In this document: one piece after another, positions 1-17,520 of the stretch | How the letters are laid out: every line of letters starts with the position of its first letter | Position numbering within the stretch: position 1 is the stretch's first letter | From: Paremcibacter congregatus | GTDB lineage: Bacteria > Pseudomonadota > Alphaproteobacteria > Sphingomonadales > Emcibacteraceae | Assembly: GCF_006385135.1 (NCBI RefSeq) | Contig: NZ_CP041025.1 | Span: forward strand, 2,263,501 to 2,327,500 | Reading direction: 5' to 3' | DNA length: 64,000 nt | Translations under genes and position numbers: made by a program | The notes under the pieces: model-generated | The model's input: the letters and a program-made list of their open reading frames with translations, nothing else | Told to the model about the DNA's origin: nothing | The model's database searches: none

Positions 1-1432
1 GATAGGCCGCCTTAGACGTTGTCCGGCCCTTTGGCGGGGCCACGAAAAACGGAATATGTTCGATAAAGTCCCCATGCTTCAGGCGTACAGCATATATACC
101 ACTTGGTAGCCCCTTGGGGACTTTATAAGAAAAGTCCGTCTCCCACTGGGCGTCATAAAGATCATCATCATGAAACGCACAGGCACCGTAATGATCCGGC
201 TTCACCGTCCACTCCGTAATACTGCCATCAAACCGTACCCCCGTAACGCCTCTGTCAGGCAGATTTATGGTCTCACCGTGCAGATTATTCTTTGATAGGT
301 CATGCACCTTGGTGGTGCCAATGTCTTTGCCAAAGTCCCAAAAGCCTATAACTTTTAAGGCTCTCTTCTTTGGCACGACCAGCCCAGAAACCTCCTGAAC
401 TTCTTTAGGCGACAACGCCCCATGGGTCAGCCGGACAGAATCCAGCTTGCCATTTAATACCTGTGCCGGCGCACGGTAATATTTACCGCGCTTGCGGCCT
501 GTCGTCGCCCCAAATCGCAGCACGCCTTTTTGCCTCGGCTTGGCTCCTGCTGGCAAGGCCAAGGTAGCACTTTGGGGACGCACCGCATATTCATTGGCAA
601 AATAGCCATCTATATGTTCGCTTGAGATTTTAAGACTACCGCTATCAGCATCATAGCTGGCCGCGACCAGAAACCAACGTTTTTTCAATAATGGCCGTCC
701 GAGTATAATCTTATGGGTTTTACCATTACTGCCGGCTATCTTAAAAGACGGTCTGCCCTGCCGGTCCAGATACAAGGACCAGCCAGTACCAGCTTCCTCG
801 TCCCAGCGCGCAACGAGTGTTTGCTCGTCAATAACCTCTTCAGTCTCTTCAATACCTAAACCCTCATGGCCAATATAAGTATCCGGATAATGGTGAAGCT
901 TCTCACCCTTCTTCAGTATGAGGGAGGGAAAGACATAGCTTTGCACCGTAAAGCTTTTGATATTATTCAGGCCCCTGGATTCAGGAACTTCCACACAAGA
1001 GCCGGGGGCTGAAATCTGATGCCGTCCCGGATATTGGCGCGCAAAAGGCGCTTCAAGCTCAAGCTCCTTCTGCATCTTCTGCGCTGGCCAGATATTCCCG
1101 TGTATCACACGCACCAGATCAGCCTCATAGGGACCACCAGCATAGGTGCTGACCTTAAAATCCAGCGTATCACCAGGCCGAGCATGCCAGGGCCAGCAAT
1201 AACCAAGGATCGTACGCTTTGGAAGCGCACGCCAGTCTTCTTGCTCCCAGTAGTTCCCAGCGGCTGATGATACAACTGCCGTTTCAGCCTTCGCTTCTCC
1301 AGCAAATATACGTGAGCCCACGGCAGCCATTATACCGGCCGCCCCTGACGCCTTCATAAAATCACGGCGACCGGGGCTCTTCGATTCAGGCGCACTATCC
1401 TTGGGCTTACTTCTATTAAGATCATCTGTCAT
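1..1432 (-). CDS. N,N-dimethylformamidase beta-subunit-like protein, Tat-exported, partial
   Basis: The reading frame opens at the ATG at 1432-1430 and stays open to the left edge; I checked the frame near 1430-1340, 1320-1260, 940-900 and 95-62. The first ~40 residues form a twin-arginine signal (RRDFMK followed by an Ala/Gly-rich stretch), so the protein is probably exported folded. The next part has the family segments ARPGDTLDFKVS and YEADLVRVIHG. A LamG-like beta-sandwich follows, and then HDDDLYDAQWETDF and LPSGIYAVRL, all typical of the large subunit of dimethylformamidase (about 760 aa, so roughly 60% is present). That enzyme hydrolyses formamides; the substrate here is unknown, and an exported form is unusual. 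It lies downstream of the receptor at 1656-4286 on the same strand, separated by a hairpin. Family is fairly sure, function is inference. Confidence 0.72.
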   Translation of the reverse strand, partial: MTDDLNRSKPKDSAPESKSPGRRDFMKASGAAGIMAAVGSRIFAGEAKAETAVVSSAAGNYWEQEDWRALPKRTILGYCWPWHARPGDTLDFKVSTYAGGPYEADLVRVIHGNIWPAQKMQKELELEAPFARQYPGRHQISAPGSCVEVPESRGLNNIKSFTVQSYVFPSLILKKGEKLHHYPDTYIGHEGLGIEETEEVIDEQTLVARWDEEAGTGWSLYLDRQGRPSFKIAGSNGKTHKIILGRPLLKKRWFLVAASYDADSGSLKISSEHIDGYFANEYAVRPQSATLALPAGAKPRQKGVLRFGATTGRKRGKYYRAPAQVLNGKLDSVRLTHGALSPKEVQEVSGLVVPKKRALKVIGFWDFGKDIGTTKVHDLSKNNLHGETINLPDRGVTGVRFDGSITEWTVKPDHYGACAFHDDDLYDAQWETDFSYKVPKGLPSGIYAVRLKHGDFIEHIPFFVAPPKGRTTSKAAY

Positions 1433-1592
1433 GGCTTTTCCACTCCGCTCCTATGTAAAATTTATAATAATTTGCACGTTCATTAAAGAGGTCGCCCACA
1501 AACAACCGCTCAACAACCCTGCTACTATGAGCCGCTGCCGCATTGAGGTTTCCGACCTGATAGCTGGAACTAAACCTGTTATTGACTTGTAA

Positions 1593-1628
1593 AGTATCAG
1601 GGCGAGCATAAAAGCCCGCCCTGATACT
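1593..1628. terminator. Hairpin between receptor gene and dimethylformamidase-like gene
   Basis: A perfect 12-bp stem (AGTATCAGGGCG at 1593-1604 with its complement at 1617-1628) encloses a 12-nt loop. On the minus strand only a short T run follows, so it is a weak intrinsic terminator or an mRNA-stabilising hairpin just downstream of the receptor stop codon. Confidence 0.6.
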
Positions 1629-1655
1629 ATTGGAACATCTTTTTGAAGTTCAGCT

Positions 1656-4286
1656 TTAGAAGTTATAGCCCACATTGATCCCAATCGTGCGGGGCCGCAA
1701 ACGATAGGCCCTGTCATCAAGTGCCACCGTATCTGCGTGTGTTAGCGCATTCTCATTGGTAAGGTTATGCACAAAGAGACCAATATCCAACTGACCCGTG
1801 TAGAGGGAAACACCTGCACTTATATTGAGCTGGCTATACCCCCCCGTTCTGGTGCCGACTTCCCCAAGCTTGTTGTAAAATTCATTGACATAAGAATAAT
1901 CACCGCGCACATAGGATGGATTATCTCCTAGATCATATTCGTACTGCAATCCGATATTTACGGTAAAATCAGCGGCACCGGGCAAGCGGTCACCAGCAAA
2001 AGCCCCCAAGCCAGGCGCATCTTCTGTCAATTTGGCATTGGTATAAGCACCGCCCAGGTTTACGCGAAGGCTTTCTGTAAGCTGGTACATCGTTTCGAAT
2101 TCAAAGCCGCGTGAACGCGCCTTACCCACGTTAGCCGTTATGGCTTGAAGGCATACTCTTGGATCCTGATCCAGCCCCCCGAACACACTTACAGGAATGC
2201 CAACCCAGTTCACTTGATACACAGCAATATTGGTTTGCAGCCTGTTATCAAGCAATGTCATTTTTGCCCCAAGTTCAAAGTTTTCCGATGTGTCAGAGTC
2301 AAACCCACCCTTCAAAGGAACCGAAGTGCCATCCAGAATACCGTCATTATTAACATCACATGTTTCAGCTAACACCGGGAAGCTAGCGTCGCCCAAACGA
2401 AACCCTTCCGCCCACTCTGCATACAGCAACGTATCATCATTTGGCGTGTAAGACAGGCTGGCCTTGAAATTAGTTCCTGTTTCATCAAAAACGCCCAAAT
2501 TATCAGAGTTACCAAGGATACCCGCTTGAATAGTATGAGAATTTTTTTCATAGTCAAAACGACGCGCGCCGACCGACACTTTCAACTGCTCAGTGATGTC
2601 ATAGGAAAGCTCGCCGTAAAAAGACAGTTGATCTGCGGACTTTTGCGCAGAGTTTGCGATAAGTAAGCGGGTTGCAGTGCCAAAGAAGGCCGCCAACTCG
2701 TCAGTTGTCGACCACGTGTCCACTAAGAGGTCAACCTCTACTTCTTCATAATAGACCCCCGCGACAAACTGCAAAGGTCCATCCAGTTGAGAGACAAACC
2801 GCAGCTCCTGGGAAAAAAACTCCGCAGAACTGTTTACATATTGAATACCCGGAAAACCGCCAAAAGAGGTTGCATCCTGAACACGCTCACCCTTGTCATC
2901 AACCCAGGATGAAGACGACAATACACTGGCCCAGCCAAAGTCATATTCAGCTACCACATTGGTAATATGAATCTCGTCCCCATGGCCAATTTGTCGACCG
3001 GCAGTTTCCGGCCCATCGCCCAACTGAAGCGTGACTTGTGTATAAGGGGCGGCCCCCAGCCCCAGCTCCACATAGGGTTGCCCTTTTTGCTCTGCTTTCT
3101 GATAGGCATGCTGAAATGTTATGCTGAGATCATCTACAGGCTTCCACAAGACCGAAACACGTCCTCCTGTATAGTCGGTAGCACCTAAATTGCTTTCATC
3201 TTGGTAAAGTTCCGCGCCTCCCCAAAGGGCAACAGCTGTTGCTGCGGGAAAGCCAGGAACAATCGTGCCATCGTTTGCCAACTGCGTGCCAGCAATATTA
3301 TTGATATAGCCACTGGTATCGTGTCTGTAGGCAACAACCCGAGCCGCCAGCTTATCTTCCACCAAAGGTACATTAATGACTGCTTCAAATTTGGTATTAT
3401 CGCCACCTGATTTGGCTGTATTAGAGTATCCAGCTTTAACACTGCCTTCAAATTCATCCAGGTTTGGCGCTTTTGGAATATTACGCACAGCCCCTGCAAG
3501 AGTGCCAGAGCCGAATAATGTGCCTTGAGGACCACGCAGTACTTCCACCCGCTCAAGGTCAATCATCTTAAGGTCAGAACCTGAACCTTGTGCCGTCAAA
3601 CCAGACAGTGATACCTCACCAAAATAGATTCCCGTCGTCGCACTTGAGGTGATACCCTCGTTTTGCGGGTCAACCCCAAGACCACGGACAATGACTGCGT
3701 TGTTGCCTAAACCCACTTCAATAAAATTAACACCAGGTACCGTACGCAGATAATCATTCATTTCAGAAAAATTTCTACGGGTTATTTCTTTGCTGCCAAT
3801 AGCAGAGATACTGCCAACCGTATCATTCAGTCCCGTTTCCCGCCGGGTCGCCGTTACGACGACCTCTTCAAGCGCAAAACCTTCAACCTCGTCAGCCCTT
3901 TCATCATCTTCATAAACAGCCATATCCTCTTGATAGTCAGCGGTTGTATTATATGAAATCTTCTGAAAACCTGATGATTCTGTCACCAGGTAAGCGCCGG
4001 TCGATGCTTGTGATAATTTGAGACCTGAGCCGCTTAATATCTGAATTAATGCTTCTTCAGGCCCCATCTCACCCCTGACGGCGACCCCTTTTTTACCCAC
4101 GATCAAATCACTAGGCGCCGCAACTGTCAGGCCAGATTGTTGATTAAATTCCAAAAGAGCTTTGGCTAAAGGTTGTGCGGAAATATTAAAATTTTCTTCT
4201 GCCTGTGCCGTGCCAGCTGTCATCAACAGCGCAACTACTGATACCGTACTTGTTAAAATATTTTTGCAAAATATATTTTTCTTCAT
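1656..4286 (-). CDS. TonB-dependent receptor with STN signalling domain (FecA-like)
   Basis: This 876-aa outer-membrane receptor begins with a signal peptide (hydrophobic core, then AQAEE at ~30). An STN (secretin/TonB N-terminal) domain covers ~residues 35-105 and is the part that touches a FecR anti-sigma protein. After an acidic linker, the TonB-box-like segment EEVVVTATRRE (~145) leads into the plug (VPGVNFIEVG, RGLGVDP, VLRGPQGTLFGSG). The rest is a 22-strand-type barrel ending in aromatic NF. It imports an unknown ligand using TonB energy. FecR (4535-5587) and an ECF sigma gene (5584-6183) lie directly upstream on the same strand, the classical surface-signalling arrangement, so ligand binding probably induces this gene. 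Family is certain; the ligand is unknown, although the neighbouring amidase-like gene hints at an amide compound. Confidence 0.93.
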   Translation of the reverse strand: MKKNIFCKNILTSTVSVVALLMTAGTAQAEENFNISAQPLAKALLEFNQQSGLTVAAPSDLIVGKKGVAVRGEMGPEEALIQILSGSGLKLSQASTGAYLVTESSGFQKISYNTTADYQEDMAVYEDDERADEVEGFALEEVVVTATRRETGLNDTVGSISAIGSKEITRRNFSEMNDYLRTVPGVNFIEVGLGNNAVIVRGLGVDPQNEGITSSATTGIYFGEVSLSGLTAQGSGSDLKMIDLERVEVLRGPQGTLFGSGTLAGAVRNIPKAPNLDEFEGSVKAGYSNTAKSGGDNTKFEAVINVPLVEDKLAARVVAYRHDTSGYINNIAGTQLANDGTIVPGFPAATAVALWGGAELYQDESNLGATDYTGGRVSVLWKPVDDLSITFQHAYQKAEQKGQPYVELGLGAAPYTQVTLQLGDGPETAGRQIGHGDEIHITNVVAEYDFGWASVLSSSSWVDDKGERVQDATSFGGFPGIQYVNSSAEFFSQELRFVSQLDGPLQFVAGVYYEEVEVDLLVDTWSTTDELAAFFGTATRLLIANSAQKSADQLSFYGELSYDITEQLKVSVGARRFDYEKNSHTIQAGILGNSDNLGVFDETGTNFKASLSYTPNDDTLLYAEWAEGFRLGDASFPVLAETCDVNNDGILDGTSVPLKGGFDSDTSENFELGAKMTLLDNRLQTNIAVYQVNWVGIPVSVFGGLDQDPRVCLQAITANVGKARSRGFEFETMYQLTESLRVNLGGAYTNAKLTEDAPGLGAFAGDRLPGAADFTVNIGLQYEYDLGDNPSYVRGDYSYVNEFYNKLGEVGTRTGGYSQLNISAGVSLYTGQLDIGLFVHNLTNENALTHADTVALDDRAYRLRPRTIGINVGYNF

Positions 4287-4534
4287 TAGATACTCCTCCC
4301 GAGCTTTTTAAGTGTCATTCACCTTGAACGGCTAATATCAACCGTATAGCTACGACGAAGACTTTCAGGATTTGTTTCAGGAAAAATTTATAAAGGCATA
4401 TTTTCTATGTTTCTAATATATTTCTGCTGTATTTTTAAGAATATGAAACAAAGACTTCCGCCCCATTAAATGAATTTAAAAAAAACTATTTTTTTATGAC
4501 AAATTTAAAAAATAAAATATTCAGCTAAAGATAA

Positions 4535-5587
4535 TCACTGTTCCTGGCGCAGTAAAATCTGGGATCCGGAGGATCTATCCACGTCAATCGAATGTACTTC
4601 CGAGATCACATCCAGGAACTGTTCAATCTCAGTCGCTTTAAAAGCTATCGTCGTACGTAATCTTCCAATATCTGAAGTTGCCAACCGAATAGGGCGCGTA
4701 GAATATCGGTTCACGTCTGCTATAATTTCATTCAAACTGGCGTCGTCATAGGCAAGGTTGCCAAGACGCCAAGAGCCCGGCTGCGAATTCTTAATCTGTA
4801 CGACTTCCGGCAAACTCACGCGTCTTTCTGCGGTAATCATTTCACCAGCGATAAGGCGTTTTTTTGCCAGATTACGCAGTTGTTCTTCTACCACTTTTTC
4901 TGATAATTCAAAGGGCTTCATAACCTCAACAACTCCTTCAGTTACCGCCACATGGACAATATCTGCGCTGCTTCTGACATTAAATCTTGTACCAACAACG
5001 CGAACAAGTGTATCATTAACAGAAACATAAAAAGGCCGGTCAGCGTTTTTCGCTATTTCAAAAAAGGCCTCTCCCGAGCGTAATGTTATCTGACGAGAGG
5101 CTTTCGAAAAGGTTGCCACCAGTTTCGATTTGGCTCCCAAAGTAACAATAGACCCGTCTTCTAAAGTAATCTCCCTGATCTCTGCAATCCCCGTAATATA
5201 ATCCAAAGAACTTGAGGGCGTATTAAATGTTGGCAACACCACAACGAATAAAACTGCAACTGCGGCAATGGTCACAATGCCTTTGGCAAAACTCGGGGAC
5301 CTCATCCAATCAAAAAACCATGTTCGCCAATTTATATGGCTCCACCAATTTGTCCCAGAACGACCAAGTTCTTTATCAATATTAACTCCCGCCGCAACAG
5401 AAACAAAATCAAGGTCACAATAAACCTGTTCAAACTCTCTGTAAGCGCGCTTGTTCTCTCGATCACCATGCAGCCACGCTTCAAATTCAAGCCGTGTTTC
5501 ATTATCGACCTCACCGGCATGCATGATCACATGCCACTCACCAGCACGGCTCATCAACATATCTTCATTTGTTTCCAATGCGGTCAT
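4535..5587 (-). CDS. FecR-family anti-sigma factor
   Basis: A 350-aa inner-membrane regulator. The cytoplasmic N-terminal domain (DUF4880 type, FEAWLHGDRENKRAYREFE at ~34-53) holds the sigma factor. One transmembrane helix sits at ~100-120 (IVTIAAVAVLFVVVLPTF). A periplasmic FecR beta-domain follows (EITLEDGSIVTLGAKSKL, GEAFFEIAKNADRPF, VVGTRFNVR). A C-terminal DUF4974-like domain (NRYSTRPIRL, then FLDVISEV) would contact the receptor's STN domain. The start overlaps the sigma stop codon by four bases (ATGA, 5584-5587), implying translational coupling. It relays receptor occupancy to the sigma factor. The partner receptor is 248 bp downstream across an AT-rich gap that probably carries the sigma-dependent promoter. 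Confidence 0.93.
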   Translation of the reverse strand: MTALETNEDMLMSRAGEWHVIMHAGEVDNETRLEFEAWLHGDRENKRAYREFEQVYCDLDFVSVAAGVNIDKELGRSGTNWWSHINWRTWFFDWMRSPSFAKGIVTIAAVAVLFVVVLPTFNTPSSSLDYITGIAEIREITLEDGSIVTLGAKSKLVATFSKASRQITLRSGEAFFEIAKNADRPFYVSVNDTLVRVVGTRFNVRSSADIVHVAVTEGVVEVMKPFELSEKVVEEQLRNLAKKRLIAGEMITAERRVSLPEVVQIKNSQPGSWRLGNLAYDDASLNEIIADVNRYSTRPIRLATSDIGRLRTTIAFKATEIEQFLDVISEVHSIDVDRSSGSQILLRQEQ

Positions 5588-6183
5588 TTTTTTGTCTCAA
5601 TTTGATTTTCTGCTTTAGTATTCTTCAAACCCTTCACAAGGGTGATCATCCCCTCAGACATCTGCCTGCTAATATCGGCCGGAGACCAACCCGTTTCCTG
5701 ACAAATTTCACGGTATGTTTTGCCTTCCAACCTACTCATGGTCAGAATAATTTGCTGTTTTCTGGGCAAAGATTTCATCACCTTCACCAGAATTTCAAAA
5801 CGTTCCCTTGCTATTACGACGCGTTCAGGCGTTATTTTTTCCAAATCCAGTTCGTGATCGGTGGCAATTTGTTCCTGAATATATGAATCTGACAGCTTTG
5901 TACGGCGTTTAAAGTCCAAAACAATATTACGTGCCGTGATATATAAGAAAGCCCTAGGGTCTTTAATTTTTGATGGTTTCGCGATATTGGCATATTTGGT
6001 AAATGCAGCCTGAACAACGTCTTCAGGTTCAGGTGGGCCTGAGCCAAAAGATTTACGAATATTAGCACATAGACTTGGAAAGTGACTGCGGTAAAGGCTA
6101 TCCAGTATTGTATCGGCACCTTGCTTGTTTGGTTCCGATACAGATATATCCCTGATCCCGGTTTTTGCCTTAATTTCTGACAT
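5584..6183 (-). CDS. ECF RNA polymerase sigma factor (FecI-like)
   Basis: This 199-aa protein has sigma region 2 at ~25-95 (PEPEDVVQAAFTKY, DPRAFLYITARNIVLDF) and region 4 at ~130-190 (LPRKQQIILTMSRLEGKTY, then a helix-turn-helix GWSPADISRQM). It lacks regions 1 and 3, as ECF factors do. It is the first gene of a sigma-FecR-receptor unit and should direct RNA polymerase to the receptor promoter when FecR signals. The 180 bp upstream are AT-rich with no recognised motif. Confidence 0.92.
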   Translation of the reverse strand: MSEIKAKTGIRDISVSEPNKQGADTILDSLYRSHFPSLCANIRKSFGSGPPEPEDVVQAAFTKYANIAKPSKIKDPRAFLYITARNIVLDFKRRTKLSDSYIQEQIATDHELDLEKITPERVVIARERFEILVKVMKSLPRKQQIILTMSRLEGKTYREICQETGWSPADISRQMSEGMITLVKGLKNTKAENQIETKK

Positions 6184-6372
6184 TTGAAACTTCTATCCTG
6201 AATTTTATAACGCATCACCATAGAATAAAATGGTCTTTGAAGCAATAATCATGCACCAGATTCAAATATTGCTTCTAGAGAAGCTATATATAATGACATA
6301 TATTATTTCCTTGAAAAACGGAATATTTTCTTATGAAAACTCCTGATTATTATTGTTTTTCACATTTCTTTC

Positions 6373-6591
6373 TCATGAAGTTCCCGCCGCGCCTTTATTA
6401 AAGCTGCTGTCACCTTTGATATACGCCTCAACAATGTAGGGGATTAAATTCTCACAGCTTTCTTTAGCGCCATATGTTTGTTCAAACACCCTCGCGTAAT
6501 CCGTAAGAAGCTCAAATATCTCCGCCGGTAAACTCACCGTTAGTTTCACAGGTGTACGATTAGGCAAAGGCCCGAGTTTCAGTTTATGCAT
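6373..6591 (-). CDS. DUF2274 family protein (conjugation-associated)
   Basis: This 72-aa protein has the DUF2274 signature at its start (KLKLGPLPNRTPVKLTVSLP) followed by a helical segment (EIFELLTDYARVFEQ). In alphaproteobacterial trb conjugation clusters this small gene follows trbI. Here it sits 14 bp behind the trbI-derived end of the chimeric gene, so the old order is preserved. The biochemical role is unknown. With the rest of the trb operon gone it is probably a relic. Confidence 0.75.
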   Translation of the reverse strand: MHKLKLGPLPNRTPVKLTVSLPAEIFELLTDYARVFEQTYGAKESCENLIPYIVEAYIKGDSSFNKGAAGTS

Positions 6592-6605
6592 TGTATGATC
6601 CCTTC

Positions 6606-7721
6606 CTAAGCCCCGTAAGGCCGGAGTATAATATCCTTGCTCACCAAAACCCGAACAGACCAGCCGGGCCGAATGATGTTGGTGGGTTTAATATTGAGGT
6701 TCCGATCGACAATCTTTTGCCCCGTGCGCCCGATGGTATCCTGCGTGCCGCGCTCAAACGCCCGTGCAAGATCACTGCCTGTATTATTAAAGGCCAGCTC
6801 CGTGCCCACATTCAAGAGTGTTGAAAGAGCCGCCACCTTAAACAAACGAGACGTATGATAATCGGTTTTATCGGACAGCCCCGCATAGCCCTCTGTATCG
6901 GCAGCGGGCAGATTATCAATCAGAATGGAAGCACCATTAGGCATAATAATCCTCTGCCAGATCACCAGTATCCGGCCCTGGCCTTCCATGATCTCACTGT
7001 CATATTTGCCGATGAGACGCGAGTCTTGAGGGATTAAGATATGCTGCACGTCCCTCACCTCATGGCGACCTTTGCGGACTCCCATCAGGGGATTGAACTT
7101 TGAAGAGTTTGAATCCGTAGGGTTAAACAGGATCACATGGGAGAAGGTGCCGCGCCAGCCTGCGGTCAGTTGCCAGTTCTCGCCCTTGATATCATGGATC
7201 AGCGCAGACCCTGTCCAACTGAGCAAGGTCGGGATCACAAGTCCCACCCCTTTGCCGGACCGGGTCGGGGCAAAACACATCACATGTTCCGGGCCGTCGT
7301 GCCGGATATAACGACCTTTCTTTTGACCGAGCACCAAACCCTTGTCACAAAACAAGCCTGCTTGGCTGATATCCTTCACCGTCGCCCAGCGGGAAGAACC
7401 GTAGGTGGTGACCGTCTTCGCCTGCCTAGCCCGCCATAAGGATCCTATAATTGCGACAACAATTGAAAGCAGTCCCCCAGCGGCGGCAATCAAACCCGCC
7501 TGGAAAAACACATCAGGGGCGTAGCCCTCATATGCAATCCACCATTGATAAAGCCGCCAGGGGACATAGACCTGTGTGCCGCCAACATTAAACCACACAG
7601 GTCCGAGAGCGTTCTGAAATCCAAGTTCATGCGCCGCATATTGTGTGCCCGTCCAGCTGGCGAGAACAACAATGAAGAAAACGACAAACATTTGGCCGAT
7701 CAGAAATTTTGTTGGAGTCAT
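6606..7721 (-). pseudogene. Chimeric traG'-'trbI gene made by deletion of a trb conjugation operon
   Basis: One uninterrupted 371-aa frame joins two conjugation proteins. Residues 1-~228 are the N-terminal part of the coupling ATPase TraG/VirD4: two membrane segments (7-25, 75-95), then YGSSRWAT, the Walker A motif PTRSGKGVG at ~152-160, HDIKGENW and FNPLMGVRKGRHEVRDVQ. From residue ~229 the sequence is the C-terminal beta-barrel of the VirB10-like channel protein TrbI (LIPQDSRLIGKYDSE, WQRIIMPNGASI, NLPAADTEGYAG, and a RPGW ending). The join lies near 7038. In intact clusters traG and trbI are separated by trbB-trbG (several kb), so a deletion most simply explains the fusion. The TraG part lacks Walker B and the rest of its motor domain, and the TrbI part lacks its membrane anchor. 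No working conjugation protein is expected. Confidence 0.85.
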
Positions 7722-8020
7722 CTTAACTTTCCTAAAGACGCCTCAAGGGTAAATAATGGCGTCTGCTTGGGCATAAGAAAGCAGGAAAAAGAGGACGTTC
7801 GTCAAGTGTAATTTTTACGTCAACCAATTGGAATAAAACAGTTATTCAACAATATACACTCACATAAAATGAACAACAAAGAAGGTCAACCAAAGACAAT
7901 TAAATGCCACTGCATTTTTTTGGGATTTAACTTGAGAAAAGATCAGGAATTGTGGAAAGGTATGGTTCAGGATACAGAAAAAACCCGAATCATTCTACAG
8001 ATAAGAATAAACAGGGCTAC

Positions 8021-8112
8021 AATTTTAGCCACAACACAACTACAAATTTGACCACTAATTCACTCCAATTTTAACCACCAAGCTACTACAAAATTCACCA
8101 CTGACCACTTGC
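8021..8112 (+). repeat. Four tandem 23-bp degenerate repeats (iteron-like)
   Basis: Units start at 8021, 8044, 8067 and 8090, with exactly 23-bp spacing measured on the shared CCAC core (8029, 8052, 8075, 8098). Each begins AA(A/T)(A/T)T and carries CCAC at the same offset; three of them end near an ACTNC. A fixed period close to two helical turns is typical of iterons or stacked protein-binding sites. No Rep gene is visible nearby. Confidence 0.65.
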
Positions 8113-8305
8113 AGTCATATCATTTATGATCGTTTATTATGATTAATGCTATATTTACTATCATATATGATATTTTTAAATTTCCTTTCATTTGGTACTG
8201 AAAAAACGACTAGAAGCTTTTCTTTCTTGTAAATAGTATCTAAAATGGTATCTTAGTGTTTACTGGTATCTTTTTAGATATTATATTGACTTTCTTCTAG
8301 TAATT

Positions 8306-8323
8306 AGTATTATATTTGATACT
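8306..8323 (+). promoter_or_regulatory. Candidate HipB operator upstream of hipA
   Basis: AGTAT and ATACT arms (8306-8310, 8319-8323) are separated by 8 bp, the geometry known for E. coli HipB operators (TATCC-N8-GGATA), although the arms differ. Related GTATC/GATAC elements recur between about 8238 and 8352, in front of the hipA start. Autoregulation by HipB is likely; the precise sites are inference. Confidence 0.45.
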
Positions 8324-8366
8324 TAAATATCAATAGATACTGAGAACGATACCCAGCAGGTAATAA

Positions 8367-9569
8367 ATGGCAAATTTAAGATATGGCATCGTGACCTTTA
8401 AAGGGTCAAAGGTGGGGACCCTCACCGAACGGGCTGAAGGCGGAACCTCATTTAAATATGATATCAGCTCTCCAGAGATTGCCTGTGCTTTGCCACGCTC
8501 AGAAGGCGAACATATCTATCCTACAGCAATACATCCTGCATTTGCCCACCTTGCTCCTGAAGGTTGGCTGCGGGCCAGGCAATCCTCCATTGCTGATGCG
8601 GGCGAAGGTGATGATTTTGGTCTTCTGTTGGAGTTTGGCCGGGATTGCATCGGCGCCATCGGCATTGAAGACCCGGAAGGTCAAGGAAGCCGTGCGGCTT
8701 TCATTCAAGGAAAAGATGCCGAGACCCGCGCCATTGCCTCAAACCACCGGACGATTTCAGGGGTACAGGCCAAAATCCTCTGTCAGAAAATAGACGGCCA
8801 GTATGTGCCGGCCGATGACACGGGGCCTGCCCCTTATATTGCAAAATTTCCCAGAGAGGACTTGAACGATCTTGTGGGCAATGAAGCTATTAGTTTAGAG
8901 CTTGTTCAAAAACTGCTCCCAGATGATGCGGTTACCAAATTTGAAAAATCCTTTATAAAAGATATCCCACAACTTGGCTTGCTTGTTGAGCGGTTTGACC
9001 GAATAGAGAACTCTCAGGGTACAGAAAAATTACGTTGTGAAGATTTTGCTCAAATTCTCGCCCATCCACCGGGACGGGATAGAGGCAATAAATATAATGT
9101 AGAATATAGCAGCTTGAAAGAGGCCCTCCAATATTCAGCCGCCCCTAAAATTGATACTTATAGAATTTTTAAAAGACTGATTGCTTTTGTAATTTTAGGT
9201 AATACCGACTGCCATTTGAAAAACTGGAGCCTTTTAGAAACATCAGGCGAACTTCGGTTATCACCAATTTATGATGTCTTGAATACCTACATCTACGGAG
9301 CACAAGGCTATAGCACAATATTTGGTTTGAAATTTAACGACCGGAAATATAACTGGCAGGAATATGACCGGAAGTTACTGGAAGAAATCGGTACAACGAC
9401 ACTCACACTCGGAGAGAAAGCAATCAGCAGAGCCTTCTCTGAAATAGAGAGCTGTCAGGGCGCATTATTCACACGGTTAAATCAACCTTTGCCTTTGAGT
9501 GAGGATCGCACCTATCACTACCGCGCCGCCATCAATGAAAAATGGGAGCAGATTTATGGATCACGATAA
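8367..9569 (+). CDS. hipA: HipA-family serine/threonine kinase toxin
   Basis: This 400-aa protein has the HipA layout. An N-terminal couple_hipA-type domain (~1-105, with FAHLAPEGWLRAR) precedes the kinase domain. TISGVQAKI at ~130 is the nucleotide-loop region; YIAKFPRE and GLLVERFDR follow; GNTDCHLKNWSLL at ~275 holds the catalytic Asp/Asn; PIYDV at ~300 is the metal-binding motif. E. coli HipA phosphorylates glutamyl-tRNA synthetase and causes persistence; the target here is unknown. The length is slightly below that of E. coli HipA (440 aa) but all motifs are present, so it is probably active. It overlaps hipB by 14 bp. The toxin-first order differs from the E. coli hipBA order. Confidence 0.88.
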   Translation: MANLRYGIVTFKGSKVGTLTERAEGGTSFKYDISSPEIACALPRSEGEHIYPTAIHPAFAHLAPEGWLRARQSSIADAGEGDDFGLLLEFGRDCIGAIGIEDPEGQGSRAAFIQGKDAETRAIASNHRTISGVQAKILCQKIDGQYVPADDTGPAPYIAKFPREDLNDLVGNEAISLELVQKLLPDDAVTKFEKSFIKDIPQLGLLVERFDRIENSQGTEKLRCEDFAQILAHPPGRDRGNKYNVEYSSLKEALQYSAAPKIDTYRIFKRLIAFVILGNTDCHLKNWSLLETSGELRLSPIYDVLNTYIYGAQGYSTIFGLKFNDRKYNWQEYDRKLLEEIGTTTLTLGEKAISRAFSEIESCQGALFTRLNQPLPLSEDRTYHYRAAINEKWEQIYGSR

Positions 9570-9768
9570 GAACCTGTCTTTACCGTCCCTTGAAGAACTT
9601 GGTAGACAAGTTCGTCTCATACGGAAAAATGAAAAACTATCCCAAAAAAAACTTGCCGATCTCTGCGAATGTTCTCATGTGGCCATTATCCAACTGGAAA
9701 AAGGCACGGGTAAACTGAATATCAGCACAGCCTGGCGGATTATGAACACACTTGGGCTTATTAAATAA
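9556..9768 (+). CDS. hipB: HipB-like antitoxin, XRE-type HTH
   Basis: I choose the ATG at 9556, inside the end of hipA, because the helix-turn-helix protein starts there; upstream codons are only hipA read in another frame. The resulting 70-aa protein has one XRE HTH domain (LGRQVRLIRKNEKLSQKKLA, then ADLCECSHVAIIQLEKGTG). It lacks the long C-terminal tail of some HipB proteins. It should bind HipA, neutralise it, and repress the operon through the upstream palindromes. Confidence 0.85.
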   Translation: MDHDKNLSLPSLEELGRQVRLIRKNEKLSQKKLADLCECSHVAIIQLEKGTGKLNISTAWRIMNTLGLIK

Positions 9769-9820
9769 ACCGTCAAATATTATCTTATAATACCCTGCTT
9801 TAAACACATATACTACTTGT

Positions 9821-10489
9821 AGAGGTGGTCCCACTTGGTTGGACAGGTTTGCGGCGATGCTAAGCTTTGTTATGTTGTTTAATGCTATGCCGCGACTTTC
9901 TTAATGTCAGGGGCATGCCCCTGATTTTCGATTTTCTGAGTATAGATCTCGTCGGGAGTTTGTCCATTAAAAGTGGAATGGGGTCGAGTTCGATTATAAT
10001 GGGTCAGCCAAGAGCCAATATTCTGCCGGGCCTGCAGGCCATTTTCAAAGGCATTAAGATAGACACATTCATACTTCAGGCTGCGCCACAGACGTTCGAT
10101 GAACACATTGTCCATCCATCTGCCCTTACCATCCATAGAGATTTTAATACCCCTATCCTTCAGCGCAGAAGTGAAATCAAAGGAGGTAAATTGCGACCCC
10201 TGATCTGTATTGAATATTTTGCTGCTCCGCGCTGACCTTCGGTTCTGGTTGGCCATAGCGGTTGAAAGCCTCTTCGAGGGCCTCCAGACAAAAACTCACA
10301 TCCATGCTTGTCAATAAGCGTTTAAAATTGACCCCCCTATTTAGTAGTAAGGCCAACATGATATCTGCCCATATATAGCGAGATATCCGGTTGGCCTTGC
10401 GTGTATTCAGGCTTGTTTTATTTTCCTGTTTTTACTTTGTGCAAAACGGAAAGAATTGTTTCCAGTTTCAATGATTGAGCAATGATGGG
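9821..10489 (-). repeat. Inverted repeat copy A (669 bp): IS21 right end plus IS3 remnant
   Basis: Read on the minus strand this segment is nearly identical to 16095-16762. It comprises the last ~27 codons of istB, the IS21-type right end (to 10309), an IS3 orfB remnant and the IS3 outer end (AGAGGTGGTCCCAC at 9821). One extra base near 10216 and a few substitutions separate the copies. Together they flank 5.6 kb in inverted orientation. Confidence 0.85.
9885..10308 (-). pseudogene. IS3-family transposase OrfB remnant, frameshifted
   Basis: This is the C-terminal third of a DDE integrase-type transposase. Visible motifs are TDQGSQFTS with the second catalytic Asp, GRWMDNVFIERLWRSLKYE with the catalytic Glu, and HYNRTRPHSTFNGQTP. 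Compared with the copy at 16275-16698 there is one extra base near 10216, which splits the frame (EQQN|IQYRSG). The 5' part of the gene is missing because the IS21-type element abuts it at 10309. Confidence 0.85.
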
Positions 10490-11157
10490 TGACCCTGTCG
10501 AGGAGTGCCGTCGTCATTTTGGCGTCACCAAAGACCGATACCCATTCACCGAACTCCAGATTGGTGGTCATGATGACACTGGTCTTCTCATAAAGTTTAC
10601 TGATCAGATGGAAGAGCAGAGCTCCGCCAGACTTGGGGAATGGGATATAGCCTAGTTCATCGATGATGACACAATCTGTCTGACTAAGCTGGCGGATGAG
10701 TTTACCGGTATTGCCTTCAGCCTGTTCCTTGATCAGGGCATTGATAAGGTCAACGGCATTGTGGAACCTAACTTTCTTGCCCTGTGTGATGAGTGAGGTT
10801 CCTCCCCAAAATTTAAAAGGCAATGGCAATATGGGTTTTACCGGTTCCGGTGCCGCCCACCAGGATCAAGTTATGCGCATCCTTTGTAAACTGTCCAGTA
10901 CACAGCTGTTGTATCTCAGCCTGCTTTACAGCGGAGAGTTCATAATCGAATGTGGCAAAGTCCTTATGATGGGGAAAGCGGGCAATCCGCATCTGGTATT
11001 CAATGGACCGCACCCGTCTTTCCGTAACTTCCGCCTCAATCAGCTGTTTGAGTGCCGTCGTCAAATTAGGTGGCGTTCTTGCGGTCATCAAGTCCTGTGC
11101 ACATCCGGCCATACCATGCAGGCGCAGGGCGGCGAGCTGTTCAATCAGAGCATTCAT
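10407..11157 (-). pseudogene. istB: istB, IS21 helper ATPase, frameshifted
   Basis: The N-terminal part (10813-11157) has the IstB start (LAALRLHGMA) and Walker [10 protein letters not shown] at ~100-108. The C-terminal part (10407-10829) has VDLINAL, Walker [13 protein letters not shown], and [10 protein letters not shown] with the sensor region. A short insertion around 10810-10828 (AT-rich, TTTTAAATTTTGGG) introduces a stop and changes frame just after Walker A. An intact IstB would be ~245 aa and would load the transposase onto target DNA. The last 27 codons also occur at 16095-16177. Confidence 0.85.
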
Positions 11158-12702
11158 GGTCTGGCCTCCTGCGTTGCATAAAGTAGCTCATAGCGTTTGC
11201 AATCGGCTTGCGGGATTACCCTCAGCTGTGGATAGCAATGGGTATCAGGCAGTGGTTCGATCACTGGTTCCACAAGCTGGTTGATCAGGTTGATGATGGC
11301 AGGCAGACGCATTGTCTTTTGCTCAACCGCCAAATCACAAGCCATTGCCACAGTCTCCATTCCATGTTGCTGAGCCTGCATCAGCAATTCAACAAAATCC
11401 CGATCGCCGCCCTTACTGTCCATATAGAGATCTTTGATCTTGTTCATGGCAGCAGGAAGTTGCCACTCAACAAAAGGCGCACCATCACGCAGAGCACCGG
11501 GCTTACGTGTCAGAAGGGGGACATAATGCCATGGTTCGAAGTAGCTGATGTTTTTGGTAAAACGACGTTTGTGTTCAGCGATTACTTCATGATCAGAGAT
11601 AATAACAATCCGGTCCGCATAAGCCCGTAGCGATATAGCGCAACCAGCATAGCGCGCAGGAACGCTGTAACGATTACTGTCATATTGCACAAGGCAGGTG
11701 GAACATACCCGTACCGCTTTCTCTACATAACCATCAAAAGTCTGACCTAAAGGGGCCAGCTCAGATCGTTCCAGTTCAAACATCTCGTCAATCGTTTGGT
11801 CCCGCCGTTCGGGATGGCGGCGTGATCCCAGTTCATTACAGCGCAGGTAAAGCCAGTCATTCAAACTAGCAAGATCATTAAAGCTGAGTTTGGGGGTAAA
11901 CAATTGGCGGCGTATATCTTGGACCTGCCGCTCAACCTGACCTTTCTCCCATCCCGCCGCGGGGGTGCAGGCAACCGGTTCCATAACATAGTGGTTCATA
12001 AGCGCTAGAAATCGGGGGTGGAATATTCTGTCTTTTGAACGCGATACATAGGTCACCATCGTCTTGTTCGTTGGGAAAACGATTCACTGGATCGTTTTCT
12101 GATCCACCTCACTATCAATGATAACTCGGCGAGGCACACCGTCATAAAAGCTCAAAGCTCGCACAAAGGCAGATAAAACCATCTCCTGGGATTCACATGG
12201 GTAGGCTACAATGAACGCTTTGCGACTGTGAGACAGTCTGAAGTGCGCTACCTTGACCTTTTGCTCCACACCACCGAGCACAACATGTTCTTCACTCCAG
12301 TCAAACTGTAGCGCGTCCCCCGCCTTGAAACGCAAGGGAATAAAGGCTTGGGATAGCGCGGAGCCATCCTCTTTTAACCGTTTGATAAACCGACAAACAG
12401 GGGAATAAGAACCGCTATAGCCTTCCCCTAAAAGCTGCTCAAAAAAGTTTCTGCGCTGTGCGCCGCTCTCGCTTGGGGCGCTTTAAATCCTGTTCAAAAT
12501 AGAGCGTCAGGCGCTCCTCAAAAGCGGCAAGCTTATGGCGGATCGGCTCCTGTCCGCGATGATAATGCGGCGGGGAACTATCTTTGAGGTACTTCTTGAT
12601 TGTATTGCGCGACAGACCTGTGTTGCGACTAACTGATCTGACGCTGTCGCCGTCTCGCAGCACGAGACGTCGTATCTTGGCTGCACTTTCCATTAAAATC
12701 AC
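11154..12702 (-). pseudogene. istA: istA, IS21 transposase, broken twice
   Basis: Three frames together make one IstA. The N-terminus (12439-12702) has the HTH segment SVRSVSRNTGLSRNTIKKYL. The middle (12084-12335) has FDWSEEHV, which holds a catalytic Asp, and FYDGVPRRVIIDS. The C-terminus (11154-12059) has GWEKGQVERQVQDIRRQLF with the catalytic Glu, and a zinc/Mu-like tail. The first break is an extra T in a run of six (12441-12446); removing it restores QKLFEQLLGEGY. The second is an insertion of roughly 45 bp containing a palindrome (12075-12099). The istA stop overlaps the istB start, as usual in the family. Confidence 0.85.
12075..12099. repeat. Palindromic insert inside istA
   Basis: GAAAACGAT (12075-12083) and ATCGTTTTC (12091-12099) form a perfect 9-bp stem with a 7-nt loop. 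It lies in an extra ~45 bp that interrupts istA between VIIDS and TMVTYVS, where the family normally runs on directly. It may be a small palindromic repeat element or a recombination scar. Confidence 0.6.
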
Positions 12703-12776
12703 CCTTCTTATCCTCCTCGCTTAATCCGCGAGGATGTTAACAGATAAGGTGGGTCAATTTTAAATGCCAATTAACA

Positions 12777-13093
12777 CAGCGGGCATATAATCTGCCAAAC
12801 AGGTCTTCATAAAAGCCGGAGGGGAGCGTTTGGTTCACACGGCTGAGTGTGGTGCGCCGGACCGACCCACTGCCCAGATGATAGGATAAATGTTTTTGAG
12901 AGGCGATGGTGCTTTCAATATCCCGAAGGCTGGAGCGCCCTGAAAGCTGGGCTGTGGACATAGCGACGAACTGCGTCCAGCGGTTCATGGCATCTCTGCG
13001 ACGCGCTCCATCATGCTTTTTTGCCAGCTGATTAAATTCATGTCGAGGAATGAGTTTTAGGATTTGGGAGAAGATCGTGTTATGATGGGTCAT
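12777..13093 (-). pseudogene. IS4-family transposase N-terminus (DUF4372), cut by IS21
   Basis: The first ~105 residues match the DUF4372 head of IS4-type transposases (NTIFSQILKLIPRHEF, RWTQFVAMSTAQLSGRSSLR, LSYHLGSGSVRRTTLSRVNQ). The frame then runs into the IS21 end at 12776, adding a meaningless tail. The DDE catalytic domain is absent, so this is an inactive leftover. Confidence 0.85.
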
Positions 13094-13695
13094 GGCTTAG
13101 ATCTCTTTGTTATTACTAGGTTTTTTGCAATTCCAGTATAACATATTATAGAGATTTAAGCCGCTTTATTTACGCGCTAAGTGGGACAGCAATGACTCCA
13201 GCCCCCAGACCCTAGCTTTATGATCATGAGGTTCAGGTTGGTAAAAGATCAAATTTCTATTTTTAACCTCTAACGTTTTGGAATTTTTCTCTGCCTGCTT
13301 TCCGTCTGAGAAAAGCCCAGGCAAAATCCTTAGGCGTATGAAGATCATCCCCGACCAGAGCGAGTTTGTCTTTTTGACTTGGTTTGTTGTCCCGCATCAT
13401 AATACCCACCATTCATAATCCGCACGTCATCACAGCCCCCTGCCTGTTTAATTATCTATCCCTGAATTATTATGTAGAGCCCTGCGCATTGAAACCGAAA
13501 ATATCTATTTTCAGGAATCATCTGCATTATGGAAATTATATATTAAAAGTGGCAATTTTATGTTGTCGCTCAACCTATCATTCAATGGAAACTTTCTGAG
13601 CATTAGGGATGAGCAAGAGGGTTCCCTTGATCCCTTAAAAACAGTAAAATAAGTGAAAATATAAAGAAGAATATTACGTTTTAGGGACGAAACCC
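13094..13695. other. AT-rich gap with a possible gene remnant
   Basis: This stretch follows the IS4 remnant and precedes the TPR protein gene. Apart from a short minus-strand frame (13263-13400) I see no gene, RNA or clear repeat. Confidence 0.5.
13263..13400 (-). pseudogene. Short frame, possibly a broken 'transcriptional regulator-like' ORF
   Basis: A 45-codon frame from an ATG at 13400 reads DKLALVGDDLHTPKDFAWAF followed by LRRKAGREKF. The AWAFLRR pattern resembles the head of small helical proteins found near integrative elements in alphaproteobacteria. A second frame (13166-13348) continues with HDHKARVWGLESLL, as if one base had been lost. Identity is uncertain. Confidence 0.3.
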
Positions 13696-14403
13696 ATGGA
13701 AAGAAGATCATTATATCTTCCTTTTTGTATCGTATTTTTGTGTAACATAATGGTTGTTGCGCCGGCATTTTCGGATCAAACCAGTTGGACAGAAGAAAAG
13801 ATTGGAAAGCTTGCTGTAAGAGCAGATAAAGCCGCCGCCCGCCAAGAATGGACGCGCGCTATTAAGTATGGCGAGAAAATGCTGGAAGGCAGCAAAGCCT
13901 TTTATGGACCAGAAGCCCCTTATACGGTCACTCGTCTTAAGGCATTGAACAGATATTATGACAAGGCGGGACGCCTTGACGAAATATCGGGACGGGTTAA
14001 AAAAGCCTACCACTTATCAAAAGAACATTTTAGGCCCTCCCATACCACGATGGTAACCAGTCGGCTTCTCTATTATAAAACATTACTTGCCCAGAAAGAT
14101 TTTAAGGGGGCAATACCTTTGGTGCTGGAGAATATATCCATACTTAGGGACAATCGTGATGATGCCTTCAAACGGCTTCATTACTTGGGACAACTTCACG
14201 GGCTATACGGCGCAACAAGTCAACCTGCTAAGCAAGAAACGACCCTTCTGGAATTACTTGAGCTCAATAAAAAACTTGTTGGCACGGATATAGAGAGCAA
14301 TATGAAGATCATTATGAACCTCGCCAAAAGCTATTGTCTGCAAAATAAACCCGAAGAATTTAAGAAATTAATGCAGACTTATGATCTGAAGTTTGAGTGC
14401 TGA
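13696..14403 (+). CDS. Exported TPR-like protein of unknown function
   Basis: This 235-aa protein has a signal peptide (ERRSLYLPFCIVFLCNIMVV, cleavage after ~AFS at 28). The mature part is all helical, with degenerate tetratricopeptide units (WTRAIKYGEKMLEGSKAFYG, ALNRYYDKAGRLDEI, ILRDNRDDAFKRLHYLGQLH, LLELLELNKKLVG). TPR solenoids bind partner proteins; this one would act in the periplasm. No partner is encoded next to it. It is one of the few intact genes between the inverted repeats. The GGGACGAAACCC upstream gives only a weak ribosome binding site. Confidence 0.6.
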   Translation: MERRSLYLPFCIVFLCNIMVVAPAFSDQTSWTEEKIGKLAVRADKAAARQEWTRAIKYGEKMLEGSKAFYGPEAPYTVTRLKALNRYYDKAGRLDEISGRVKKAYHLSKEHFRPSHTTMVTSRLLYYKTLLAQKDFKGAIPLVLENISILRDNRDDAFKRLHYLGQLHGLYGATSQPAKQETTLLELLELNKKLVGTDIESNMKIIMNLAKSYCLQNKPEEFKKLMQTYDLKFEC

Positions 14404-14417
14404 CATCGCAAATTTGA

Positions 14418-15002
14418 ATTCTTTTTGTAGAAAATAGGTTCTTTTCTGATGAACGTCCCGCGCCTTATGTGAATTTACTTCCTGAACTCACATTTTTCAT
14501 TGCAGGTTTATCAAAAGCAGTTTGCGGGGGGCTAAGAGTTGCTTATGTTGTTCCCCCAGCGGCCTTATTCAAAACATTAAAACGAAGAATTCTTGCCACT
14601 CACTGGACATTGCCTCCGTTGATGGCAGAAATTGCCACACGCTGGATTAATGATGGCACGGCGATGACAACATTAAGCACTAAGAAAACAGAAGCCGAAA
14701 TTCGGCATCGCTTGGCTTATAAAATAATTGGCGCCCCATTTATCAAAGAAAAAGCCGCAAGTTCTTATGTCTGGATTGATCTTCCATCAGAATGGACTGC
14801 TGAAATATTCATTAATGAAGCCTTTGAAAATAGGGTCGCAGTTTTGGGAGATGGGAGTTTCCGCGTAACACCTGAAGCTTTAAAACCGGGTATTCGTTTG
14901 TGTCTGGGCGCCGCACCTGACAGACAAAGACTGGAAACTGGTTTGATAAAAATAGCGGCAATGCTGAAAGATGGCCCTGGGGGAAGCTTCGGCATTATTT
15001 AA
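14418..15002 (+). pseudogene. C-terminal fragment of a MocR-type PLP aminotransferase/regulator
   Basis: The open frame begins directly after a stop at 14415 without a start codon and reads DERPAPYVNLLPELTFFIAG. LSKAVCGGLRVAYVVPP contains the PLP-binding Lys of fold-type I aminotransferases. PLMAEIATRWINDGTA and IRLCLGAAPDRQRL follow. These are the second half of MocR/PdxR-type regulators, which carry a GntR HTH followed by an aminotransferase domain. The HTH and large domain are missing. A GTG at 14469 could start a 177-aa peptide but not a functional enzyme. It may once have controlled the neighbouring PLP enzyme gene (15095). Confidence 0.7.
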
Positions 15003-15094
15003 TAAATAACAAGATGAAATTCCATTGCAAAATTCACTAATTGAGTTTTGCTTAACGGGCGACCTACGCCTTCTGAACAAAAGGATGTTAAATT

Positions 15095-16177
15095 ATGACA
15101 GAAATAAATGATATAAACCAATATACGGCTTCTACAAGGTTGCTTTATGCAGATGAAGGTTTTTCAGATGAATGGAGCAGTTCTCCCCCCATTCACCAAT
15201 CTGTAAGCGGGATTGCAAAAGACGCCGAAGAATTCGCGAAAATTTCATCTGCCCCTTTGGAAGAGCGCTTTTATGCGCGTCACGGCAACCCGACCAGCTC
15301 GAGGTTAGCAAAAGTCATTACTAATCTGGAAGGGGGAGAATGCGGCATTGCTTTTGCGGCTGGACAAGGGGCGACAACAACGGCCCTTATGACTTTTCTG
15401 AAAGCTGGGGATCATGTTATTGCCCAAAAAAATCATTATATGGGAACCTCTAAAATGGTCACTCAAATATTGCCAAAATACGGTGTTGAGGCAACAGTGG
15501 TTGATCAAAGGTCGGTACAAAATTTTGAAGAAGCCGTTAGGCCAAATACCAAACTTATTCTTCTGGAAACACCTGTTAATCCTTTAATGTATATTACGGA
15601 TATCAAGGGAGTTTGTGATATTGCGCGGTCAAAGAATATCCTGACATTTTGTGATAATACTTTTGCGACCCCAATTAATCAGAGACCCATAGAACAGGGT
15701 GTCGATATTGTCATGCACAGTACGACCAAATATATCGGGGGGCATCATGATCTTTTGGGTGGTAGTCTTACTGCGTCAAGAGAACTTTGTGAGCAGATTT
15801 GGGATATGAGTATGAATATAGGGGCTATTCCTGCCCCGTTTAATTCATGGCTTGCACTTCGGGGCATTCGAACTTTGGGCCTACGTGTCAAACAACAAAA
15901 TGCTAGTGCTCAAGCCATTTCAGAATTTTTGGAAAATCATACAGCGGTGAGCCAAGTTTTTTATCCCGGCCTAGAAACTCACCCCCAACATCAATTGGCA
16001 AAAAGCCAAATGTCGGGCTTTGGAGGGGTACTCACATTTGTTTTAAAGGGGGGGTATGATGCAGGACGTAAATTTATTGAAAGAGTAAAATTAGCCCATC
16101 ATTGCTCAATCATTGAAACTGGAAACAATTCTTTCCGTTTTGCACAAAGTAAAAACAGGAAAATAAAACAAGCCTGA
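15095..16177 (+). pseudogene. Cys/Met-metabolism PLP enzyme with C-terminus replaced by IstB tail
   Basis: Residues 1-~333 are a gamma-lyase/cystathionine gamma-synthase family enzyme: RHGNPTSSRL, AFAAGQGATT, PLP-stacking NHYMGTSKM, LLETPVNPLM, and STTKYIGGHHDLLGG with the Schiff-base Lys. The family normally continues ~50 residues with the active-site segment SLGG.ES. Here the DNA switches at 16095 into inverted repeat copy B, and the frame ends with the 27-residue tail of IstB ([17 protein letters not shown]). The lost segment includes substrate-binding residues, so activity is doubtful. The original enzyme may have been methionine gamma-lyase or cystathionine lyase; the sequence does not decide. 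Confidence 0.82.
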
Positions 16178-16762
16178 ATACACGCAAGGCCAACCGGATA
16201 TCTCGCTATATATGGGCAGATATCATGTTGGCCTTACTACTAAATAGGGGGGTCAATTTTAAACGCTTATTGACAAGCATGGATGTGAGTTTTTGTCTGG
16301 AGGACCTCGAAGAGGCTTTCAACCGCTATGGCCAACCAGAACCGAAGGTCAGCGCGGAGCAGCAAAATATTCATACAGATCAGGGGTCGCAATTTACCTC
16401 CTTTGATTTCACTTCTGCGCTGAAGGATAGGGGTATTAAAATCTCTATGGATGGTAAGGGCAGATGGATGGACAATGTGTTCATCGAACGTCTGTGGCGC
16501 AGCCTGAAGTATGAATGTGTCTATCTTAATGCCTTTGAAAATGGCCTGCAGGCCCGGCAGAATATTGGCTCTTGGCTGACCCATTATAATCGAACTCGAC
16601 CCCATTCCACTTTTAATGGACAAACTCCCGACGAGATCTATACTCAGAAAATCGAAAATCAGGGGCATGCCCCTGACATTAAGAAAGTCGCGGCATAGCA
16701 TTAAACAACATAACAAAGCTTAGCATCGCCCCAAACCTGTCCAACCAAGTGGGACCACCTCT
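16095..16762 (+). repeat. Inverted repeat copy B (668 bp)
   Basis: This is the same sequence as 9821-10489 in opposite orientation: 180 bp of IS21 right end (16095-16274), then the IS3 remnant to AGAGGTGG at 16762. Its left edge cuts a PLP-enzyme gene and its right edge cuts an esterase gene. It appears to be the residue of a second IS3::IS21 composite, most of whose IS21 was deleted. Confidence 0.85.
16275..16698 (+). pseudogene. IS3-family transposase OrfB C-terminus (copy B)
   Basis: Here the C-terminal part of the transposase is in one frame (MDVSFCLEDLEEAFNRYG, TDQGSQFTSFDF, the Glu motif in ERLWRSLKYE). The first catalytic Asp domain and OrfA are missing. A frame can be read from the IS21 end at 16225, but those first residues are IS21 DNA. 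Confidence 0.85.
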
Positions 16763-17175
16763 GTCATCAGTAATTAGTTGCGTCGGCGTAAGGTCTCGTC
16801 GCCTTATTAATCCTGCCTGCAGATCCGACTCTACTGGATAGCCTATGCCTACAATAATGAATCGGGAAACTTCGCCGCTACCCTGTACGTGATTGAGCCC
16901 GTTTACTTCCATAGGCCCATTAACATCAGGCATGTAAAGAACAGGAAATTTTTCTGTTCCATCTTCCAGTGACAAAGGGACCTTTACCTGAATCACGTAA
17001 GTCTGATCGATAAATTTTTTGATTTGATAAAATATGTATCAATTTTAGGGTTGTGATAGACCTTATCATTCGCATGGACTTGGCTAGCGAATGCCAAGAC
17101 TAGAAACCCAAAAATCTGAATTTTTACAAGACCCCATGGGCGGATCAATTTGTGAGCAACTGCATTGTTAAGCAT
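16763..17175 (-). pseudogene. Exported esterase-family gene, truncated and frameshifted
   Basis: An ATG at 17175 opens a signal peptide (IFGFLVLAFASQVHAND) and ~25 mature residues. One base change in an A/T-rich run near 17015-17040 then shifts the frame. The other frame continues with YVIQVKVPLSLEDGTEKFPV and LYMPDVNG, then FIIVGIGYP and RRRDLTPT, typical of the putative-esterase (EstA/D-like alpha/beta hydrolase) family. The gene is cut at 16762 by repeat copy B, before the catalytic Ser. Confidence 0.7.
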
Positions 17176-17520
17176 GAATGCCTCTCCTATTTTAATTATT
17201 ATTATTCATTTCCTATTTCCATATTGGCTCAATTCTATTGCATCCATTAGAACATACCGTTTAATTAAAACCACTACCTCTGAGGTAACAGTTAATCTGG
17301 AATATCGACTAACCGATACTCAGACTACATGCATTAACCGCCTATTTAAATTTACCCTTATGCAAGACCTCTGAATTCTTGATATATGATTATAATTTTC
17401 TTTTTGTTGAGGTCTAATTTTATATATTGATACTTTAATAAGATTTATCTATTAAAATACCACTCAAACTCGCATATCTGATTTAGGAATACGGCACAAA
17501 GTTCGATACGTATCCACGAA
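17176..17520. other. Gene-free AT-rich stretch
   Basis: No supported gene, RNA or repeat is visible between the esterase remnant and direct repeat copy 1. Confidence 0.5.

Follow-up and report, generated by a model that had tools for sequence, protein, structure and literature searches.

The 64,000-nucleotide window analysed here (positions 2263501-2327500 of NZ_CP041025.1, the one contig of the 4.19 Mb Paremcibacter congregatus genome, completeness 98.8%) carries on its minus strand, at 7721..6606, a reading frame of 371 codons that is stop-free inside. Its first part, about 228 codons, resembles the N-terminal third of an IncP-type TraG coupling protein and its last part the C-terminal domain of the transfer protein TrbI, and a DUF2274 gene follows (Table 1).

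Table 1. Parts of the hybrid TraG-TrbI locus (window coordinates)
Feature	Position	Strand	Description and basis
TraG-derived 5' part, codons 1-228	7038..7721	-	Membrane N-terminus and P-loop segment; NCBIfam PRK13876
Putative deletion junction, codons 227-229	7035..7043	-	Located by comparing codons across TraG and TrbI homologues; exact base not definable
TrbI-derived 3' part, codons 229-371 and stop	6606..7037	-	C-terminal TrbI/VirB10 domain; Pfam TrbI
DUF2274 gene, last of the presumed parental cluster, apparently intact	~6591..6373	-	Pfam DUF2274, E 1.6e-21; stop codon read

Judged by profile comparison, both halves match their families far above chance level. Pfam T4SS-DNA_transf aligned with residues 111-226 (profile positions 1-129 of 468, E 7.2e-27) and Pfam TrbI with residues 225-366 (38-188 of 188, E 1.1e-39). 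The NCBIfam models PRK13876 (TraG) and PRK13831 (TrbI) aligned with residues 1-228 (profile 1-228 of 667) and 226-366 (profile 282-427 of 433), respectively, with scores below the whole-protein cut-offs, as partial proteins should have. Each half is collinear with the corresponding stretch of a whole gene. The membrane segment and the P-loop of TraG/VirD4 proteins are present, the latter as APTRSGKGVG, which we take to be the P-loop, and the complete ATPase is absent; the TrbI/VirB10 C-terminal domain is present and the N-terminal part missing. These results, with the profiles splitting at residues 225-228, bear out an earlier note on this DNA, which described a single stop-free frame uniting TraG and TrbI parts and a P-loop kept in an incomplete motor. 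The TraG half is 67% identical to the nearest TraG of its own genome and 70% to the nearest homologue found (G058), and the TrbI half is at most 62% identical to homologues, the nearest being G034.

TraG and TrbI matches were found at three further places in the genome. One cluster (L008, 2225-2237 kb) lies 33 kb from the hybrid, and the other two, at 603-614 kb and 2804-2812 kb, are closely related (L010 is the one at 2804-2812 kb and L009 its sister copy). Each of the genome's four trbI ends is followed by one Pfam DUF2274 match, in agreement with the previous observation that this gene follows the hybrid as in complete clusters. In L008, the interval separating the joined points comprises the remainder of traG, a 159-aa ORF, trbB, trbC, an 84-aa ORF, trbE, trbJ, trbL, trbF and trbG. 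TraG, TrbB, TrbE, TrbJ, TrbL, TrbF and TrbG of this cluster exceeded the cut-off of at least one NCBIfam model; TrbC (a weak match) and TrbI scored below the cut-offs, and neither the 159-aa ORF after traG nor the 84-aa ORF at the place of trbD had an NCBIfam match. The ORF sizes and order of L009 are consistent with a complete cluster.

The distance separating TraG codon 228 and the TrbI equivalent of codon 229 was measured in nine clusters whose two ends share a contig; two of them are from this genome and seven from others, and in all nine traG and trbI are co-oriented. It was 9,945-10,582 bp in eight of them, and L059, the ninth, had 17,328 bp. In a tenth, the broken cluster L010, the same points are 7,174 bp apart. 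Compared with L009, this cluster lacks 4.4 kb between the ORFs sized and placed as trbE and trbF, the gap being filled by a 1.2 kb IS3-like element (L010 6226-7470), and an IS110-like element lies behind its DUF2274 gene (both elements named by reading translations). Flanking the break, L010 matches L009 at 99.97% identity to one side and, to the other, at 97.5% until the IS110-like element is reached; past that element the identity is 100%. The trb clusters are undergoing erosion in the P. congregatus genome, in L010 with an insertion sequence and in the hybrid without a visible one.

The I of VRDVQHI is encoded by 7040-7038. Hybrid codons 227-229 are CAT ATC TTA; at these codons close TraG homologues mostly have AAT or AAC, ATY and GCN, and YAT CTN YTN prevails in close TrbI homologues. 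At the protein level the former read VRDVQN (T in one) followed by I or V and the latter Y/H/F-L-L, the H of the hybrid not being the usual TraG residue. From this comparison, the join lies in codons 227-229 and is not placeable to the base. The breakpoint near 7038 with zero residues between the homologies, as first proposed, was correct in location, but the exact border between VRDVQHI and LIPQ can be placed only somewhere within the three codons. The suggested alignment to intact traG and trbI for micro-homology left room only for short, interrupted identity: judged from homologue codons rather than parental sequence, A-T is permitted in codon 227 and T or T-C in codon 228, and a long direct repeat at the junction is not indicated. 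Repeats in 5500-10500 were two-copy direct ones of 14-20 nt and inverted pairs of 14-25 nt. An insertion sequence as the cause of the deletion was rejected, with none at the junction and 7722-8366 single-copy in the genome.

Taken together, it is very probable that the hybrid remains from a fourth ICE-type traG-trb cluster, in which one deletion of ~10.3 kb took place, and that the relic is most likely inactive. A deletion of this length in a fourth, diverged cluster would explain the hybrid, because the joined points are 9.9-10.6 kb apart in eight of the nine clusters. One internal deletion would account for the surviving DUF2274 gene as well. A single, illegitimate event would have joined traG codon ~228 to a trbI codon about two thirds in, sparing DUF2274 in place; other ICE genes are also missing. 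Read in either of its other frames, the TrbI half would run into a stop at codon 0 or 11, so the same-frame join can be regarded as a 1-in-3 accident for which selection is unnecessary. An undeleted parent was not found, and the event is reconstructed from homologues at most 70% (TraG half) and 62% (TrbI half) identical. The earlier note had attributed the fusion of two genes to deletion of trbB-trbG; this is supported, and the loss would have been larger, taking also roughly two thirds of both traG and trbI.

The surroundings were compared with the ORFs (≥50 aa, E ≤ 1e-4) of L008, L009 and L011, whose counterparts in window 1-17500 were found only at 6391-7748, that is, at the hybrid and DUF2274. 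No trbB-trbG genes, which a functional transfer cluster would have, lie between the hybrid halves. The nearest match to the integrase family PF00589 is ~498 kb from the remnant. Cluster L008/L011 (2225-2245 kb) has no Phage_integrase match within ~520 kb; such a match lies near each of the other two clusters. The G+C content of 6500-7499 (51-55%) exceeds that of the blocks 5000-6499 and 7500-8499 (34-44%); in the hipA block 8500-8999 it is 50%. The remnant is bordered on one side by a FecI/FecR/TonB-receptor-like group (names from reading translations) and on the other by hipA-like and helix-turn-helix genes. A hipA-like gene followed by an overlapping helix-turn-helix ORF occupies 8367-9768, adjoining the remnant, and transposase-like ORFs, named by reading translations, continue from this pair up to ~13100. 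A 669 bp inverted repeat of 99.55% identity occurs at 9821-10489 and 16095-16762. At its second copy lies the end of a cystathionine gamma-synthase-like ORF (15095-16177), the final residues of which are the same as the tail of an IstB-like ORF (10407-10829); both names again come from translations.

It is unlikely that the two halves come from different trb clusters and that recombination between elements brought them together. Such an origin could draw on the three further clusters of the genome, and the two halves have different nearest homologues, G058 for TraG and G034 for TrbI. However, neither half closely matches any cluster of its own genome, and the identities of the two halves to ten clusters covary (Spearman 0.77, p 0.01, n=10; in G058 the two halves are on separate contigs). 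Trees built for each half position the hybrid differently, but the forks that hold it are weak in both, and the trees are no proof of one parent.

For a deletion within one cluster, the sequence also bears on the age. Over codons 1-226 the hybrid differs at 4 of the 78 residues invariant in 20 other TraG rows (0 to 7 for the others, leave-one-out), and over codons 230-367 at 2 of the 34 that are unchanged across 12 TrbI rows, where the other rows score 0 to 2. When changes at codon positions 1 and 2 are divided by those at position 3, the ratio averages 0.44 for the TraG half (0.41 for other pairs) and 0.50 for the TrbI half (0.44), slightly raised values within the single-row ranges of 0.38-0.51 and 0.37-0.55. 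Identical codon rows were dropped from these statistics, as were rows of <50% (TraG) or <45% (TrbI) identity and rows covering <200 (TraG) or <120 (TrbI) residues; one retained TraG row, L051, is itself cut short further on. In this locus (L051 1279-2202, G717:C13) the TraG frame stops near residue 300 and the sequence behind shows no more TraG matches; this is perhaps an independent truncated coupling-protein gene. The end branches of the hybrid are above the median (0.43 vs 0.28 in the TraG tree, 0.58 vs 0.34 in the TrbI tree), and neither is the longest. Had the frame drifted freely since the deletion, its lack of stops would put a 95% upper bound of ~0.08 substitutions per site on that drift, with indels disregarded. 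Because of this bound, most of the divergence would be older than the deletion, or else the hybrid is still constrained. The codon statistics resemble those of other homologues, which favours a deletion that is probably young; present constraint on the frame would be compatible with the same comparison. The term "fossil" overstates the age, since the sequence is hardly decayed and has no stop in 371 codons.

In order to find further hybrids, several genome and plasmid sets were searched. The same architecture in many genomes, named beforehand as the finding that would argue for a real fused protein, was not found within the scope of these searches. Among 60 near genomes (own included, several incomplete) 27 had a match, with a single match spanning both halves only in the own genome. 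At E ≤ 1e-95, a limit estimated to overlook hybrids diverged much beyond ~50% identity, 11 of 385 class genomes (own included; up to five candidates scored per genome in the rows shown) had a match, and all 13 non-hybrid matches stop at residue 229. The junction pattern, which detects only hybrids with a nearly identical junction, occurred once in 396 genomes of the order (own included), in the own genome. Two such scans of a genome contig collection, possibly without the window's own genome, gave 0 matches and 1 chance match in an 11-codon frame. In the plasmid collection, the DNA search returned 293 records, none with one place covering >80% of the query. The protein searches gave at least 9 and at least 13 records with such a place; the 6 listed of the at least 13 are separate neighbouring traG and trbI genes in two pieces each, not hybrids. 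The junction peptide matched 2715 records, 109 with >80% covered, and the 12 listed of these (10 annotated TrbI/VirB10, 2 hypothetical) each match in one piece and show no hybrid. In the literature search, a TraG-TrbI hybrid was absent among the matches listed.

The product, if made, would be a membrane-anchored coupling-protein fragment with a P-loop, without a complete ATPase, plus a TrbI domain, and would most likely be inert. In the structure model, helices span residues 3-33 and 69-103. The pLDDT is at least 91 for residues 11-90, 68-77 for 1-10 and 91-100 and mostly <50 for the remainder; MAFFT aligned segments of TrbI rows to TraG columns, so the model is uninformative on the TrbI half. 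The VirB10-type C-terminal domain acts in the periplasm and outer membrane, and the N-terminal part of TrbI/VirB10 carries it to the periplasm. In the hybrid the domain comes after a segment that the two long N-terminal helices would place in the cytosol, and would probably be on the wrong, cytosolic side. A working hybrid protein is unlikely because most of the TraG ATPase is gone, though the P-loop is kept.

A real, functional fusion gene, for example for a membrane protein interfering with the TraG of a resident ICE, is very improbable. The open frame and a codon constraint like that of other homologues would suit it, but the codon statistics are also explained by a recent deletion. The motif AGGAAA precedes the start codon and the membrane part is confident in the model; against this, the ATPase ends at profile position 228 of 667 and the TrbI domain would be misplaced as described. 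A consensus scan counted 11 promoter-like sites in 6200-8400 against 4.8 (sd 2.5) in shuffles; on the minus strand none is close before the hybrid, the upstream sites there beginning at 8164 or farther, >400 bp from the start. A functional fusion family was rejected, with no second hybrid in the 60 near, 385 class and 396 order genomes. It is likewise very doubtful that the hybrid is expressed and that its TraG membrane part joins resident-ICE TraG complexes, as an accidental dominant-negative brake on transfer. An assembly error collapsing a real whole cluster is hardly credible, since the three other trb clusters, as potential repeats, are too unlike the hybrid for collapse (54-67% protein identity) and the genome is one contig, 98.8% complete.

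The hybrid is ordinary mobile-element decay of a known type and settles no open question. One deletion in a mobile element can yield a hybrid frame, which automatic annotation may label a TraG or a TrbI gene. A single genome here combines trb clusters that appear complete with one interrupted by an insertion sequence and one that has collapsed, three states in all. In the part of the description of Tn4371-like ICEs considered here (PMC2789088), traG is followed by trbBCDEJLFGI, a gene order like that proposed for the parent and also present in L008. Compared with that transfer region, the hybrid locus is without the interior from the first third of traG to the last third of trbI, and of the other genes of the compared clusters only DUF2274 remains beside it. 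Decayed or partly deleted ICEs are alike in losing transfer-related genes and leaving a stump, as in the ~100 bp traR1 remnant of Mesorhizobium ICEs, according to the section of the source consulted (PMC8627217). The P. congregatus hybrid differs from such decayed elements, as far as these excerpts describe them, in that its stumps would have been fused in frame by chance.
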